From contig OMUX01000097.1 of assembly GCA_900314345.1 (NCBI GenBank), positions 1-10,729 on the forward strand: DNA of 10,729 bases, given 5' to 3'. The position numbers and the translations under genes are program-made. The DNA comes from an uncultured Erysipelotrichaceae bacterium (GTDB lineage: Bacteria > Bacillota_I > Bacilli_A > Erysipelotrichales > Erysipelotrichaceae). This document shows positions 4,165-10,380 of the stretch, piece by piece. The notes beneath the pieces are model-generated. The model was not told the origin of the DNA. It did not search any database and was given only the letters and a program-made list of their open reading frames with translations. Positions within the stretch are counted from its first letter, which is position 1; every line of letters begins with the position of its first letter.

Positions 4165-4175
4165 AGGAAGTACTG

Positions 4176-4207
4176 AAAAGCGGCAGGAATCCGTATGCCG
4201 CTTTTTT
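4176..4207 (+). terminator. Strong intrinsic terminator (possible attenuator) between the DUF349 and GTPase genes
   Basis: A perfect 10-bp stem AAAAGCGGCA/TGCCGCTTTT (4176-4185 with 4196-4205), a 10-nt loop and a T-tract to 4207. It begins 11 nt after the DUF349 stop and ends 23 nt before the GTPase start at 4231. Confidence 0.88.
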
Positions 4208-4230
4208 CGTGGAAATGGGGAGAAAAGGCT

Positions 4231-6741
4231 ATGAGCAGGAACATCGCAGCGGGAATCCTGGCACATGTGGATGCCGGCAAGACGACATGCATTGAAAACA
4301 TGCTGGCAGTGTCCGGTGTCATCCGTTCTGCCGGCAGGGTGGATCATGGGGATACCGTGCTGGACTATGACAGTGAAGAACGCCTTCATGGCATTACGAT
4401 CTATGCCAAGGAGACGCACTTTCATCATGGCGATGCGGAGTTCTGGGTCATCGATACCCCGGGGCATGTGGATTTCTCCAGTGAAATGGAACGCTCACTT
4501 TCCGTGCTGGATCTTGCCGTGCTTCTGATCAACGGACAGGACGGAGTGCAGAGCCATACGGAGACGATCTGGAAATGTCTGGAACATTATCATGTGCCGG
4601 TGATTGTCTTCATCAACAAGATGGACATCAGCCATATCTCAAGGCAGGATCTGCTTCATGATCTGCAGCAGCACTGCAGTGCCTCATGCATTGATTTCAG
4701 TGAAGGCATCAATGAAGAAGCACTGGCGGAATGCGATGAGAAGCTGCTGGATGCCTATGCGGAAGGAGAACATCTGCGTGATGACATGATCGCCGAAGCC
4801 TTTGTGCACCGTTCCTTCTTTCCTGTGCTTTATGGTTCTGCATTGAAGGGCGAAGGCATTAAGGAACTGCTGGACTGGATGAACCGTCTCATGCCGCAAA
4901 GAGAATGGCCTGAGGAGTTCGGTGCCAGAGTATTCCGTGTGTCTGTGGATGACCGTGGTGAACGGCTGTGCCATGCAAGGATCACCGGCGGCGTTCTCAG
5001 GGCAAGAATGAAGATCTCGGAAGAAGAGAAGGTGGATCAGATCCGTTTCTATACCGGTGTGAAGTATGAAGCAGCAGATGAGGCCGAGGCAGGTACGATT
5101 GCTGTTCTCAAGGGACTGAAGAATGTCAATGCCGGAGACGGCCTTGGTTTTGAGGAAGGACAGAACGAACCGCTTCTTTCTCCATACATGAACTATGAAG
5201 TAGCTGCGGCTCCCGGCTGTGATCTTCTGCAGCTTTCCAGGGCATTCACAGAGCTTGCCCAGGAAGATCCCCAGCTCCATGTGGAAATTGATCCGGACAC
5301 GCATCATATCTCCCTGCAGATCATGGGGAAGATGCAGATGGAGGTATTGCAGAAGAAGATCCAGGAAAAGTGCGGCATCTCCATTGCCTTTGCCCATGGA
5401 AGAATCCTGTACCATGAAACGATCCTGAAGGGGGTGGACGGGGCAGGACACTTTGAACCGTTACGGCATTATGCAGAAGTGCATGTGCATCTTGAGCCGC
5501 TTGCAAGGGACAAGGGCATCGTGGTGGACAGCAGCTGCGGGACGGATGATCTTTCCGCCGGCTGGCAGCGTTCCATCCTTTCTGCCTTAAGATCAAAGCG
5601 CCACCGTGGCGTACTCACCGGTTCTTTTCTGAGTGATGTGAAGATTACCCTGACAGCCGGCAAGGGTTCCGTGAAGCATACGGAAGGCGGCGACTTCCGC
5701 CAGGCAGCGCTGCGCGCTGTGCGCCAGGCGCTCTGCAAGGCAGACAATGTGCTGCTGGAACCCTATGAGACATTCACGCTGAAGATCCCCTCCGCGTCCA
5801 TGTCCAGGGCACTGTATGATCTGGAACAAAGACACTGTTCCGTACAGGTGGTCAGCGACACACAGGTGGAAGGAAGAGGACCGGTGCGGCTGCTTCTGGA
5901 TTACCAGGATGATGTGACAGGCTATACCAGAGGGCAGGGCATCTTCCGGGCAGAGGCGGATGGCTATGACATCTGCCAGGATGCAGAAGAGATCATTGCC
6001 CGCTCCGGCTATGATCCGGATCTTGATCTCAGAAATCCATCATCCTCGGTCTTCTGTGAACATGGAAAAGGTGTCAGTGTGCCATGGAATGAAGCTGATG
6101 CCCGGATGGACATCCAGCTGGATGCACCTCGTTCATCAGGCAGCGGCGTGAGTGCAGGAAGAGTCGATGAGGATGAGGTGAAGCGGGTGTTTGCGTCTTT
6201 GAACGGACGCAACCGCAATGCAGAAAAAGAAGCCGAGAAGGAATACCGGAAGAAACAGGAAAAGGAAAAGGCGGACAAACAGAATGCCAAGGTCAAGGCT
6301 TCACCGCACCTTCCGGTGTGCCTGATTGTTGATGGATACAACATGATCTTTTCCTGGAAGGATCTCAAGGAGGCCGCATCCCAGGACATCTCGCTTGCAA
6401 GGGACATGCTGGTGGACCGGCTGTGCGCTTATCAGGCATATACGGGTGATGAGATGATCATTGTCTTTGACGGCTACAAGCGCAAGGACAACAACGGCAC
6501 AACGGAAAAACACGGCAAGGTGTCTGTTGTCTATACAAGAACGGACCAGACCGCGGATGCCTGGATTGAGAAGGCATCCTATGATATGAACGGTAAATAT
6601 GCACTGTCTGTTGCAAGTTCTGATGCCTTGATCCAGAACACCGTGTTTTCCCAGGGGGCATTGCGGATCTCGGCAAGGGAACTGGAGGACAGGGTGGTAT
6701 TCAGTGAGAATCTGTACAGAGAGAAGGGAGGAGGAAGATGA
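4231..6741 (+). CDS. TetM-like ribosome-binding GTPase fused to a YacP/Rae1-type NYN ribonuclease domain
   Basis: An 836-residue protein; classical TetM/TetO proteins have about 640. Residues 1-590 have the EF-G/TetM layout: G1 AHVDAGKT (11-18), switch I HGITI (53-57), G3 DTPGH (75-79), G4 NKMD (129-132), G5 GSALKGEG (202-209), domain II about 228-315, domain III about 320-395, domain IV about 400-515 with KHTEGGDFR at 482-490, and domain V to about 590. After a variable stretch and a charged helical linker (663-692) comes a complete NYN domain (695-836): LIVDGYNMI (Asp701), IIVFDGYK (Asp747), TRTDQTADAWIE, ASSD (Asp798) and QGALRISARELEDRV. These match Bacillus Rae1/YacP blocks, a ribosome-associated endonuclease cutting mRNA in the A site. 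Inference: the GTPase part places the nuclease on the ribosome. ATG 4231 has GGGGAG at 4217-4222; an upstream in-frame ATG at 4195 lies in the terminator. The stop overlaps the next start by ATGA. Confidence 0.88.
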   Translation: MSRNIAAGILAHVDAGKTTCIENMLAVSGVIRSAGRVDHGDTVLDYDSEERLHGITIYAKETHFHHGDAEFWVIDTPGHVDFSSEMERSLSVLDLAVLLINGQDGVQSHTETIWKCLEHYHVPVIVFINKMDISHISRQDLLHDLQQHCSASCIDFSEGINEEALAECDEKLLDAYAEGEHLRDDMIAEAFVHRSFFPVLYGSALKGEGIKELLDWMNRLMPQREWPEEFGARVFRVSVDDRGERLCHARITGGVLRARMKISEEEKVDQIRFYTGVKYEAADEAEAGTIAVLKGLKNVNAGDGLGFEEGQNEPLLSPYMNYEVAAAPGCDLLQLSRAFTELAQEDPQLHVEIDPDTHHISLQIMGKMQMEVLQKKIQEKCGISIAFAHGRILYHETILKGVDGAGHFEPLRHYAEVHVHLEPLARDKGIVVDSSCGTDDLSAGWQRSILSALRSKRHRGVLTGSFLSDVKITLTAGKGSVKHTEGGDFRQAALRAVRQALCKADNVLLEPYETFTLKIPSASMSRALYDLEQRHCSVQVVSDTQVEGRGPVRLLLDYQDDVTGYTRGQGIFRAEADGYDICQDAEEIIARSGYDPDLDLRNPSSSVFCEHGKGVSVPWNEADARMDIQLDAPRSSGSGVSAGRVDEDEVKRVFASLNGRNRNAEKEAEKEYRKKQEKEKADKQNAKVKASPHLPVCLIVDGYNMIFSWKDLKEAASQDISLARDMLVDRLCAYQAYTGDEMIIVFDGYKRKDNNGTTEKHGKVSVVYTRTDQTADAWIEKASYDMNGKYALSVASSDALIQNTVFSQGALRISARELEDRVVFSENLYREKGGGR

Positions 6742-8558
6742 AGGAAGAGAAGAAACAGAGATTTCCGAACCAGGTGAGTCTGCTTGCGTATTTCCTTCGA
6801 GGATCGACGCACTGGTTTGTGCTGGGCATTCTCTGTGCCTGCATATCCTCGCTTCTTGATCTTGTGAACCCGAGGATCATTGCCTATACGGTTGATGCGG
6901 TCATCGGAAACAAGGAAACGGTGATCGCCCCTGTGTTTCAGCATCTGGTGGATGCGGCCGGCGGTGTATCGTACCTGCATGCACATCTGTATCTCATTGC
7001 CCTTCTGGTCATTGTCATTGCCCTGGTGCGGGCTCTGTTCCGCTATTGCTTTACATTGTTCAATACAAAAGGTGCAGAAAAGCTTGTGCAGACCATGCGC
7101 AATGATCTGTTCTCCCACATCATGCGTCTGCCGTTTTCCTGGTATGGAGAGAATCAGACTGGTGATATCATCCAGCGCTGTACCTCTGATGTGGAGACGA
7201 TCAAGGTGTTCCTTTCCGAACAGCTGACGGGATTCTTCCGCACGATCATCATGCTGGTGCTGTCGCTGTACTTCATGTTCTCCATTCATGCAAAGCTTGC
7301 CTGGGCAGCCTTTGCCTTCATTCCTGTCATCATCGGCTACAGCTTCTTCTTCCACTCCCGCATCGGGGATTCCTTTGAAAAGGCGGACGTTGAAGAAGGA
7401 AAGCTTTCCTCCATTGCCCAGGAGAATCTCACCGGGGTGCGTGTGGTGCGTGCCTTTGGCAGGGAGAGCTATGAAAGGCAGCGGTTTGAGAAGCAGAATG
7501 AAAGCTACACGAAGTACTGGGTGAAGCTCATGAAGACCCTGGCCATGTTCTGGTGCAGCGGTGATCTTGTCTCCTATCTGCAGGTGCTGGTGATCCTGGT
7601 ATCAGGAACCGGCTATGCGGTCAAAGGAGAGCTTTCCGCCGGCAGCCTGATTGCCTTCATCACCTACAACAACATGCTTACATGGCCTGTCAGGGCACTG
7701 GGAAGGGTCATTTCGGAAATGTCCAAAGCCGGCATTTCAATAGATCGTCTCAGGGAAGTGATGAATGCCGAAGAGGAAAAAGACGTGGAACATCCTGTGA
7801 CGCCGGACATGCATCAGGACATCACGTTTGATCATGTCAGCTATCAGTATGAAAACGGCAGCGCGGAAGTGCTGCATGACATCAGCTTTACCATCAAGGC
7901 CGGTACAACCGTTGGCATTCTTGGCGGCACGGGCAGCGGCAAGTCAACGCTCATGTATCTTCTGTCAAGGCTGTATGACCTTCCGGAAAAAGGCGGCAGG
8001 ATCCTGATCGGAGATACAGATATCCGCAGCATTGAAGGAGATTATCTGCGGAAGAACATCGGCATGGTGCTGCAGGAGCCTTTTCTGTTTTCCAGGACCC
8101 TGGAGGAGAATATCTCCATCGCTCTGGATCATCCGGATCACAGACAGGTCAGGGATGCCGCAAGGACTGCTTCCCTGGATGAAACCATCGGGAAGTTTGA
8201 CAAAGGCTATGAGACGTATGTCGGCGAGCGCGGGGTGACATTGTCCGGCGGACAGAAGCAGAGGACAGCCATTGCCCAGATGCTGATCAGAAAGCCGCCA
8301 ATCATGGTGTTTGATGATTCCCTTTCGGCTGTGGATGCCGAGACGGACAGCAGGATCCGTGCAGCATTGAAGGAAAAGACGGCAGACAGCACGGTGATCC
8401 TGATTGCCCATCGGATTACAACACTCATGAATGCAGACCAGATCATCGTCATGAACCATGGCAAGGTTGCCGAGACCGGCACACATGAAGAACTGATGGA
8501 AGCAAATGGCATCTACCGCAGGATCTATGACCTGCAGGCACAGGGAATGGAGGGATGA
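6738..8558 (+). CDS. Heterodimeric ABC exporter half-transporter, degenerate Walker B subunit
   Basis: A 606-residue half-transporter: an exporter-type membrane domain (hydrophobic segments near 24-42, 84-105, 165-182, 187-205, 278-295 and 300-315) followed by an ATPase domain (about 360-600). Seen: Walker A GGTGSGKST (396-404), Q-loop Gln446, signature LSGGQ (502-506), Walker B IMVFD ending in Asp526, and switch His558. The residue after Walker B is Asp527, not the catalytic Glu, so its own site should hydrolyse ATP poorly. Its intact LSGGQ completes the consensus site of the partner encoded next. Family knowledge: BmrCD, LmrCD and TM287/288 share this asymmetry and export drugs or lipophilic compounds. 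The ATG overlaps the GTPase stop by 4 nt and follows GGGAGGAGG at 6726-6734, so the two are translationally coupled. The substrate is unknown. Confidence 0.92.
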   Translation: MKEEKKQRFPNQVSLLAYFLRGSTHWFVLGILCACISSLLDLVNPRIIAYTVDAVIGNKETVIAPVFQHLVDAAGGVSYLHAHLYLIALLVIVIALVRALFRYCFTLFNTKGAEKLVQTMRNDLFSHIMRLPFSWYGENQTGDIIQRCTSDVETIKVFLSEQLTGFFRTIIMLVLSLYFMFSIHAKLAWAAFAFIPVIIGYSFFFHSRIGDSFEKADVEEGKLSSIAQENLTGVRVVRAFGRESYERQRFEKQNESYTKYWVKLMKTLAMFWCSGDLVSYLQVLVILVSGTGYAVKGELSAGSLIAFITYNNMLTWPVRALGRVISEMSKAGISIDRLREVMNAEEEKDVEHPVTPDMHQDITFDHVSYQYENGSAEVLHDISFTIKAGTTVGILGGTGSGKSTLMYLLSRLYDLPEKGGRILIGDTDIRSIEGDYLRKNIGMVLQEPFLFSRTLEENISIALDHPDHRQVRDAARTASLDETIGKFDKGYETYVGERGVTLSGGQKQRTAIAQMLIRKPPIMVFDDSLSAVDAETDSRIRAALKEKTADSTVILIAHRITTLMNADQIIVMNHGKVAETGTHEELMEANGIYRRIYDLQAQGMEG

Positions 8559-8562
8559 GCAG

Positions 8563-10380
8563 ATGGAAGAAGAAAAGAAGACATCGCTGAAGTTCTTCGG
8601 CATTCCGCTGATCGCTCCGTATCTGAAGCCTTACCTGAAGCGCATGCTCCTGATGATCCTGACGGGCATCCTGGTTTCACTGATTGATGCTGTCTATCCG
8701 CTGTTCAACCAGTATGCACTGGATCATTATGTAGCAGAAGGAACAACGGATACGATACCGGTGTTCATTGCCTTGTATGCAGGCATCCTTGTGCTGCAGG
8801 TGCTGACGAACTTCTACTCCACATACAGCTGCGGCAAGGTGGAGATGAGCGTGGACCGCGATCTCAGGAATGCGGCATTCAACCACCTGCAGGAACTGTC
8901 ATTCTCCTACTTCTCGCAGAACAATGTCGGCTATATCCATGCAAGGGTCATGTCGGATACGGGAAAGATCGGGGAACTTGCCGCATGGCGGTTAATGGAT
9001 GTGGTATGGAACGGTTCCTATCTTGTATGCATGATCATCATGATGTTCACGATCAACGTGAAGCTTGCATCACTGATCATGATCCTGGTTCCGGCATCGG
9101 CTTTCCTGATTGCTGTCTTCCAGAAACGCCTGGTGCATCTCAACCGGCAGATCCGTGAGATCAACTCGCGGATTACTTCCAACTTCAATGAAGGCATCAC
9201 CGGAGCAAGAAGCGTGAAGACGCTGGTCATTGAAGGCAAGATGGACCATGACTTTGAAGCTGAGACGGAGAACATACGCAGAACATCCGTCCATGCCGGC
9301 CATTACAATGCACTGCTGATCTCGCTGACGACGATGATGGGATCCTTTGCCTTGGCCATTGTGCTTTCCATGGGCGGAAAGCTGACCAGGGAAGGCGTCA
9401 TGCAGATCGGAACATTGTCCGTGTTCATGAGCTATGCCCTGTCCATGATGGATCCGATCTCCTTCATTGTGGAGACCGTGTCGGCGCTGATTGCCATCCA
9501 GGTGAACATTGAGCGCTTTACAAAGCTCATGAATACAAAGAGTGATGTAGCGGATACCCCGGAGGTGATAGAGAAATACGGGGATACCTTCCACCCGAAG
9601 AAGGAGAACTGGGAGCCGTTGTTCGGAGATGTGGAGTTCAGGAATGTGGACTTCAGGTATCCGGACGGGACGGAGTATGTGCTGGAAAACTTCAGTTTAG
9701 TGGTTCCCCAGGGCACCAACGTTGCCATTGTGGGAGAAACCGGAGCCGGGAAGTCGACATTGATCAACCTGGTCTGCCGTTTCTATGAACCCACAAAGGG
9801 ACAGGTGCTGATCGACGGACGTGATGCAAGACAGCGTTCCCAGCTCTGGCTGCACAGCAATATCGGCTATGTCCTGCAGACACCGCATCTTTTCTCAGGA
9901 ACGGTCAGGGACAACCTGCGCTATGGAAAGCCGGATGCCAGCGATGCGGAAATCTGGAAGGCACTGAAGATGGTATCTGCGGAAGATGTTGTCAGGCGCA
10001 TGGACAAAGGCCTTGACTCGGAAGTGGGTGAGGGCGGAAGCCTTCTTTCCACGGGAGAAAAGCAGCTGCTTTCCTTTGCCAGGGCATTGCTTGCAGATCC
10101 AAGGATCCTGGTGCTGGATGAGGCAACAAGCTCCATTGACACCATGACTGAGAAAGCAATCCAGGAGGCGATTCAGACCGTGATCAAGGGACGCACAAGC
10201 TTTGTGGTTGCTCACCGCCTTTCCACCATCACCGGTGCGGATGTCATCCTTGCCGTGAAGGATGGGAAGATCGTAGAGCGTGGAACACACCATGAGCTCA
10301 TGCAGAAACATGGCTATTACCATGAGCTGTTCACCAGACAGTTCTCGGAACTGGCAAGTGATCTTGCCCAGGAAGGATAA
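8563..10380 (+). CDS. Heterodimeric ABC exporter half-transporter, catalytic Walker B subunit
   Basis: A 605-residue half-transporter and the evident partner of the protein before it. Membrane domain with hydrophobic segments near 28-48, 65-85, 150-165, 168-186, 248-270 and 282-300; ATPase domain from about 355. Seen: Walker A GETGAGKST (391-399), Q-loop Gln439, signature LSTGE (495-499, deviating from LSGGQ), Walker B ILVLD with catalytic Glu520, and switch His551. Pairing this Walker A/B with LSGGQ of the partner makes the consensus ATP site; pairing LSTGE with the partner's Asp-Asp Walker B makes the degenerate one. The ATG at 8563 is chosen because GGAGGG at 8549-8554 stands 8 nt upstream; a start at 8506 inside the previous gene would add 19 residues unlike the family. 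The gap to the previous stop is 4 nt, so this is one operon. Confidence 0.92.
   Translation: MEEEKKTSLKFFGIPLIAPYLKPYLKRMLLMILTGILVSLIDAVYPLFNQYALDHYVAEGTTDTIPVFIALYAGILVLQVLTNFYSTYSCGKVEMSVDRDLRNAAFNHLQELSFSYFSQNNVGYIHARVMSDTGKIGELAAWRLMDVVWNGSYLVCMIIMMFTINVKLASLIMILVPASAFLIAVFQKRLVHLNRQIREINSRITSNFNEGITGARSVKTLVIEGKMDHDFEAETENIRRTSVHAGHYNALLISLTTMMGSFALAIVLSMGGKLTREGVMQIGTLSVFMSYALSMMDPISFIVETVSALIAIQVNIERFTKLMNTKSDVADTPEVIEKYGDTFHPKKENWEPLFGDVEFRNVDFRYPDGTEYVLENFSLVVPQGTNVAIVGETGAGKSTLINLVCRFYEPTKGQVLIDGRDARQRSQLWLHSNIGYVLQTPHLFSGTVRDNLRYGKPDASDAEIWKALKMVSAEDVVRRMDKGLDSEVGEGGSLLSTGEKQLLSFARALLADPRILVLDEATSSIDTMTEKAIQEAIQTVIKGRTSFVVAHRLSTITGADVILAVKDGKIVERGTHHELMQKHGYYHELFTRQFSELASDLAQEG

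Follow-up and report, generated by a model that had tools for sequence, protein, structure and literature searches.

A translational GTPase fused to a Rae1-type nuclease in Erysipelotrichaceae and Clostridia, a candidate lineage form of Rae1

The gene considered here lies in a 10,729-nucleotide (nt) stretch of contig OMUX01000097.1 (GCA_900314345.1) from an uncultured Erysipelotrichaceae bacterium, the whole of which is called the window; judged from its sequence, it encodes an intact translational GTPase and an intact Rae1-type nuclease in one chain. The fusion is probably (with a rough probability of 0.6) the form that Rae1 takes in this lineage, an endoribonuclease that would cut mRNA on stalled ribosomes while tethered to the GTPase that delivers it; this reading draws on the intact GTPase, the intact Rae1-type nuclease, a replacement-like distribution, and the distinctness of the GTPase from Tet(M).

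The architecture was already published in 2015. Ten clostridial species were reported to have Tet proteins that carry a YacP-like NYN domain (Atkinson 2015, PMC4342817); as described there, a single chain holds this domain and a GTPase resembling elongation factor G (EF-G) or Tet, as in the window protein. That report filed its clostridial fusions under Tet; those likened to them here by description also occur in Erysipelotrichaceae, were found in 51 of the 137 Clostridia sampled, and fall outside Tet(M). The present analysis adds the wider spread, a replacement pattern, a separate GTPase clade, and reduced forms of the fusion. The 2015 report predates the 2017 paper in which Rae1 is said to have been recognized as a ribosome-dependent endonuclease. 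A literature search found no experiment on the fusion, and met a description of it in the 2015 report only; one survey of Rae1 distribution may mention it.

Conservation of the fused chain

A scan of GTDB contigs yielded at least 596 confirmed relatives, of which the best 80 were kept; together with the window protein they make up the family alignment of 81 sequences. A first-pass annotation of the window had pointed out one uninterrupted frame joining the GTPase to the NYN domain and had allowed for a reading error; such an error, or an accidental join of two genes, was rejected, since each of the best 80 of the at least 596 relatives carries the fusion in a single uninterrupted frame of 828–956 amino acids (aa), and fusion-length frames occur in 96 of the 105 genomes of the window's order that match NYN_YacP. 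The same annotation had supposed that similar fusions exist under tetracycline-resistance labels, and fusions of this kind were indeed found, one of them so labeled (Agathobacter, NZ_CP143948). Within the window's own genus, all genomes with an NYN_YacP match were fetched except G263, and the GTPase and NYN domain shared one frame in 19 of these 19. In G263 (L110:4990–5100) the two halves occupy separate frames that overlap, and runs of A mark the join; this split may represent a sequencing slip or a frameshift signal. The fusion of G530 is broken into two frames of 351 and 588 aa. Profile matches cross a stop codon in 17 of the 105 matching genomes of the order; in the eight that were fetched, the whole fusion is contained in one frame, and the NYN motifs precede the end of that frame.

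Both halves retain their characteristic residues. The G-domain motifs of the window protein read AHVDAGKTT, GITI, DTPGH, NKMD and GSA, and Asp14, Lys17, Thr18, His79, Asn129, Lys130 and Asp132 within these motifs are present in 81 of 81 sequences. The four NYN aspartates at positions 701, 747, 776 and 798, presumably the catalytic residues by analogy with the NYN/PIN fold, are likewise present throughout the alignment; their loss in homologs, a possibility raised by the first-pass annotation, was not seen among the 81 sequences, and both its list of motifs and its numbering of Asp701 and Asp747 agree with the Pfam domain search and the sequence. Glu780, also in the NYN domain, is found in 79 of 81 family members; in the 20 same-genus rows the four aspartates are retained in all and Glu780 in 17.

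The window protein passes the gathering score of PF05991 (140.7 against 24.6 bits), and its NYN half was aligned over 125 residues (E = 2e-24) to the solved YacP structures 5mq8/5mq9, which we take to be Rae1 of Bacillus subtilis. The NYN domain and the four aspartates are thus shared across this alignment; yet the B. subtilis Rae1/YacP is a free protein with a chain of 181 residues, whereas the NYN domain of the window rides on a GTPase in a protein of 836 aa. An AlphaFold2 model of the fusion, built with 60 sequences, has a mean predicted local distance difference test score (pLDDT) of 86.5; the GTPase body, the ordered segment following domain V (residues 585–626) and the bulk of the NYN domain are modeled with confidence, and the linker (about 634–689) falls mostly below 50. 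Over residues 1 to about 620, structure searches with the full model (Foldseek/VIA) retrieved members of the superfamily that include EF-G, EF-2 and TetM; as these searches barely probed the NYN domain, its assignment is founded on the Pfam match and the alignment to 5mq8/5mq9.

The linker between the halves measures 62 to 122 residues in the 81 sequences (median 80), and a length of at least 62 residues would not in itself keep the nuclease from the ribosomal A site. It contains a short conserved element in which Glu649 and Gly659 each occur in 74 of 81 sequences; the strict pattern is found in 53 of 81, the window protein not among them. A possible metal site was noticed in the C-terminal extension of the GTPase (window 5974–6111), composed of Cys582 (79/81), Cys609 (81/81), His611 (80/81) and His627 (79/81); the window protein has Asp at position 627, conservation of the four residues is weaker within the genus of the window, and at position 611 also in relatives without the NYN domain.

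Distribution and history of the two halves

In a GTPase tree of 56 rows, built by a quick method and accompanied by a program warning of uneven residue composition for 24 of them, the fused and the NYN-less forms constitute one clade (SH-like approximate likelihood ratio test, SH-aLRT, 99) apart from Tet-like rows; GTPases of this group are called clade GTPases here. A single clade (SH-aLRT 100), spanning Clostridia and Erysipelotrichaceae, unites the fused GTPases, with the NYN-less form of Ligilactobacillus salivarius nested within it, which suggests a single fusion event and at least one later loss of the NYN domain. The NYN-less clade members (L087, L090–L101, L104, L105) resemble the window protein in sequence (35–42% identity), in the C-terminal extension and, for the most part, in the domain IV tip HT[ES]GGDFR (the variable place is Val in L087 and Cys in L104), and they differ from it in the absence of the nuclease domain. 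The frames of L104 and L105 (from G684 and G622) measure 700 and 729 aa, approximately 30–80 residues beyond those of the other members (644–671). Of the 24 stand-alone domains in the NYN tree, 23 fall into one clade; the remaining one, L119, from a genome (G842) that also encodes the NYN-less clade GTPase L090, groups at modest support with fused domains. On this tree, five changes account for the labels fused, stand-alone and reduced.

NYN_YacP was found in 105 of the 148 sampled genomes of the window's order, in one copy each, and 96 of these copies lie in frames of at least 760 aa, a length taken as the sign of fusion with the GTPase half not checked genome by genome. The other nine comprise four copies cut by contig ends (G431 by its coordinates; G462, G463 and G395 as seen in L114–L116), the split gene of G263 (L110), and four reduced forms. 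In the window genome, which is 83% complete, the fusion is the sole NYN_YacP copy found. Clostridia were sampled by an even draw of 137 genomes with a completeness filter of 95%, and by a larger sample of 392 genomes. In the even draw, 93 genomes hold NYN_YacP above the cut-off, one copy each, of which 51 are fused and 42 stand-alone; none has both forms, against about 16 expected under independence (Fisher p 2e-11, kinship ignored). Apart from two broken copies, the fusions occupy frames of 852–937 aa (n = 49) and the stand-alone proteins frames of 168–216 aa; all 51 fused genomes encode the clade GTPase. From these surveys the fusion seems to replace the ordinary stand-alone Rae1 enzyme. The larger sample contains 254 genomes with an NYN_YacP match, 248 of them with a single match; G743 has both the fused and the stand-alone form, and in four other genomes with multiple matches the second match is below the cut-off. 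The control genome of B. subtilis was matched in the NYN_YacP searches.

Two side observations concern NYN_YacP outside intact fusions. In G811 (contig C56, 81209–81444; L169, L174), two short adjacent fragments cover positions 1–31 and 94–140 of the NYN_YacP profile (166 positions); the genome has an intact fusion at another site, and the fragments are perhaps the remains of a displaced Rae1 gene. Stand-alone NYN_YacP-like proteins were also seen in 12 plasmid records of Clostridioides difficile and in 11 phage-classified records, chiefly of Listeria; some mobile or prophage-like elements carry the domain.

Reduced forms occur in one genus, designated g4, in which 32 of 36 genomes match NYN_YacP, mostly through fusions of 810–872 aa; in G906 and G907 a contig end truncates the copy. 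In G095 and G430, domains IV and V are missing, and domains G, II and III are followed by linker and NYN domain in frames of 615 and 603 aa; in G474, G465, G903, G904, G908 and G886, frames of 201–226 aa contain only a linker remnant and the NYN domain. All eight reduced forms retain the four NYN aspartates, and they nest among the full g4 fusions; since G903 stands apart from the other five NYN-only forms, the GTPase was probably lost twice. A search of the six NYN-only genomes, four of them 72–78% complete, found no clade GTPase elsewhere in these genomes. The NYN-only genes retain a recognizable linker element, which is faint in G903 and by this persistence may belong to the function of the nuclease. 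Of the 43 NYN-less genomes in the order, 20 were screened for the clade GTPase, which was absent from 18 of 18 informative genomes; these hold only EF-G-like genes, other translational GTPases, and two Tet-like genes. The remaining two, G259 and G346 (listed as 98–99% complete), gave no candidates for NYN_YacP or any translational GTPase, not even EF-G, and are uninformative, as the search was seemingly blind there. Going by the reduced g4 sequences and the joint absence in NYN-less genomes, the nuclease is the part of the fusion family that is most often kept.

These patterns bear on the possibility that the two enzymes are independent and merely co-expressed on one chain, the GTPase with a job of its own and the NYN domain working as an ordinary free Rae1. 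The long disordered linker would suit such an arrangement, as would the finding of each half alone elsewhere, and of both unfused within one genome; but the fusion forms a single clade across Clostridia and Erysipelotrichaceae that was rarely undone in the sampled rows, the linker element is conserved, and both halves are missing together from the 18 informative NYN-less relatives. Mere co-expression is unlikely, if still the strongest of the rival explanations.

A GTPase outside Tet(M)

The window GTPase has the five-domain EF-G-like body, the G motifs, and the His79 of DTPGH in common with Tet(M) and Tet(O); the first-pass annotation had accordingly called it TetM-type and associated it with removing a drug. 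Neither label was upheld, as the tree places the protein outside Tet(M), its scores stay under the cut-offs of the Tet models listed here, and the tip residues of Tet(M) are missing from it. It reaches 392 bits on tet_protect (cut-off 775) and 288 bits on the Tet model M/W/O/S (cut-off 1100), whereas the control L106, a Tet(M), passes both with 874 and 1334 bits; three NYN-less relatives scanned on tet_protect scored 376–413 bits. The protein is not an elongation factor G by score either (TIGR00484, 245 bits, cut-off 659), and the window genome has a separate EF-G-like gene (L084, frame of 702 aa).

The difference extends to the tip of domain IV, where all 81 family members read KHTEGGDFR and the Tet(M)-type proteins L106–L108 read YSPVSTPADFR. 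Pro509 of Tet(M), at the tip of domain IV, is described as lying in the drug site (PMC8161019); the corresponding region (YSPVST) is not present in the domain IV tip of the window protein. The tip is looser in the window's own genus, where Glu485 occurs in 12 of 20 rows. As a mark private to the clade the motif was rejected, because L102, a Tet-like row outside the clade and without the C-terminal extension, reads HTHGGDFR. The extension after domain V is shared with NYN-less clade members and absent from L106–L108, so that Tet(M)/Tet(O) and the window protein differ at the C-terminus also. On these sequence comparisons, the GTPase is distinct from Tet(M).

It has been proposed that the NYN domain contributes a ribonuclease step to antibiotic resistance (Atkinson 2015, PMC4342817), the GTPase freeing drug-bound ribosomes. 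Besides having been published, this proposal accords with the Tet proteins being the closest named families (392 bits on tet_protect), and with one member being annotated as Tet(M/W/O/S). That score is nevertheless far below the cut-off and the value for a true Tet(M), and the tip residues are unlike those of Tet(M). Relatives covering at least 80% of the query occur in only 2 of 72,556 plasmid records, one of which carries secA and cotJ genes, and the samples of the order and the class show a single copy of the gene in each genome. Five fusion-bearing genomes of the even draw (G483, G511, G517, G528, G613) also hold genes of verified-Tet(M)-type score and frame length, a call made by these two measures and not by typing each gene singly; their coexistence with the fusion is as expected if the fusion is not a resistance gene. 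Tetracycline resistance is an unlikely main role of the fusion, and drug protection aided by a ribonuclease is the least probable of the alternatives weighed here.

A related annotation was met on a megaplasmid of Ligilactobacillus salivarius (L087:5983–7917), where an NYN-less clade GTPase is annotated as a Tet(M/W/O/S) resistance protein with 376 bits on tet_protect, against a cut-off of 775; the label is perhaps a mislabel.

Proposed action and genomic setting

Rae1 attacks mRNA at the A site (PMC12320835, PMC10100781), its B. subtilis form being described as a translation-dependent mRNA endonuclease (PMC10100781), and TetM and other Tet proteins are described as binding the ribosomal A site (PMC8161019); a chain that ties the two together would suit a factor that seeks out ribosomes whose A site is empty and cleaves mRNA at that place. 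The GTPase body would dock at the factor site of such ribosomes, in the manner of EF-G and Tet proteins, and the invariant domain IV tip would probe the decoding site; upon GTP hydrolysis or release domain IV would withdraw, and the NYN domain, on its leash of 62–122 residues, could then move into the A site and cleave the codon that it holds, and the truncated mRNA would pass to rescue or decay. In the forms without domains IV and V, the NYN domain would take the place of domain IV on a carrier composed of domains G, II and III. For the fusion itself, mRNA cleavage and GTP gating are inferred.

The same two domains could serve as a ribosome-maturation checkpoint, with the GTPase test-docking on new subunits and the NYN domain processing rRNA or tRNA. 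NYN_YacP has been proposed to function in rRNA/tRNA maturation (cited in PMC4342817), and the EF-G relatives LepA and BipA have been linked to ribosome biogenesis; yet the gene that the fusion appears to replace is the one whose B. subtilis form is the translation-dependent mRNA endonuclease cited above (PMC10100781), and a maturation role is quite unlikely. This explanation, drug protection and mere co-expression all seem weaker than a Rae1 tethered to its delivering GTPase.

Several points weigh against a tethered Rae1. Domain IV and the NYN domain should not share the decoding site, so that a sequential step has to be assumed. The Fisher p value is inflated, because the exclusivity of fused and stand-alone forms rests on few evolutionary events, and G891 (genus g4, 6% contamination) has two fusion-length copies. 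Within the even draw, 38 of the 42 Clostridia with stand-alone YacP have no clade GTPase; the clade GTPase is retained alone in 4 of 44 NYN-less Clostridia, and thus has a use of its own; and the unfused halves occur together in 4 of the 42 stand-alone genomes, as they do in 20 of 60 genomes of a set chosen for high-scoring stand-alone YacP. The 38 genomes just named and the NYN-only derivatives in g4 show that the nuclease can do without the GTPase.

A more specific version of the tethered Rae1 is held tentatively, at somewhat less than even odds: a dedicated, GTP-gated ribosome-rescue nuclease without a resistance role, which senses the empty A site with its own tip, hands the nuclease to the codon, and stands in for free Rae1 across much of the Clostridia and Erysipelotrichaceae of the gut. 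If so, the forms lacking domain IV would represent a minimal delivery factor of domains G, II, III and nuclease, and a large group of gut bacteria would start the decay or rescue of stalled messages by a GTPase-driven nuclease. We know of no other translational GTPase with an mRNA-cutting domain of its own, and to our knowledge the route by which Rae1 enters the ribosome is not settled; a partner fixed to Rae1 by evolution suggests what may deliver it. Chromosomal genes labeled as tetracycline resistance or as unspecific GTPases, both of which labels were met on fusion relatives in a handful of annotated records, would then need relabeling, a matter of consequence for resistance surveys.

Table 1. 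Features of the fusion gene and its product; positions refer to the window.
Feature	Position	Strand	Remarks
Fusion gene	4231..6741	+	836 aa, stop codon included, internal stops 0
Shine-Dalgarno-like GGGGAG	4217..4222	+	8 nt ahead of ATG at 4231, by sequence reading
G domain (GTP_EFTU)	4243..4896	+	residues 5-222, Pfam 2.7e-49
EF-G domain II (EF-G_D2)	4918..5145	+	residues 230-305, Pfam
EF-G domain III (EFG_III)	5182..5388	+	residues 318-386, Pfam
EF-G domain IV (EFG_IV)	5401..5742	+	residues 391-504, Pfam
Domain IV tip KHTEGGDFR	5674..5700	+	residues 482-490, each identical in 81/81 aligned members
EF-G domain V (EFG_C)	5749..5982	+	residues 507-584, Pfam
Ordered C-terminal extension of GTPase (NP..SVFC.HG.G..V.W..)	5983..6111	+	residues 585-627, conservation and model
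Charged linker	6112..6321	+	residues 628-697, mostly predicted disordered
Linker element	6166..6207	+	residues 646-659, commonest family form EL..IF.RTYG
NYN_YacP (PF05991, Rae1-family) nuclease domain	6322..6708	+	residues 698-826, Pfam 5.9e-41
Asp701 (VDGYN)	6331..6333	+	81/81
Asp747 (VFDGY)	6469..6471	+	81/81
Asp776 (TADAWIE)	6556..6558	+	81/81
Asp798 (VASSD)	6622..6624	+	81/81

Downstream of the fusion gene, two overlapping half-genes of an ATP-binding cassette (ABC) exporter lie at 6738–8558 and 8506–10380 on the plus strand, the first overlapping the fusion stop by four bases; the solved YheH/YheI structures (7m33) rank near the top among half-size transporters similar to this pair. We take YheH/YheI to be BmrCD, and Rae1 of B. 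subtilis reportedly shuts down bmrCD mRNA. As a target analogous to bmrCD the exporter pair was rejected: it stands beside the fusion in none of the 80 loci (at 35% identity or more, some flanks being short), and a full-length pair in none of the 19 same-genus loci. A DUF349 gene and the gene at 1924–2697 each adjoin the fusion in 2 of these 19 loci; no conserved neighbor of the fusion was found, either beside the best 80 of at least 596 relatives or in the 19 same-genus loci. A search of Rfam gave no match.

Upstream, an 11-pair hairpin with a T run (window 4175–4206, plus strand) follows directly on the DUF349 gene and ends approximately 23 nt before the ATG; an alternative in-frame start codon at 4195 is possible, but sits within this hairpin. 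Candidate readings of the hairpin are a terminator of the DUF349 gene and an attenuator; the latter was rejected, with a z of -1.5 against shuffles (13 of 200 as good) and no listing by the terminator scan. Similar leader hairpins were counted loosely, and with no control, in 41 of 97 relatives; a strict count gave 11 of 79, compared to 2 of 79 inside genes and 0–1 in shuffles. These leader hairpins are probably the ends of the preceding genes.

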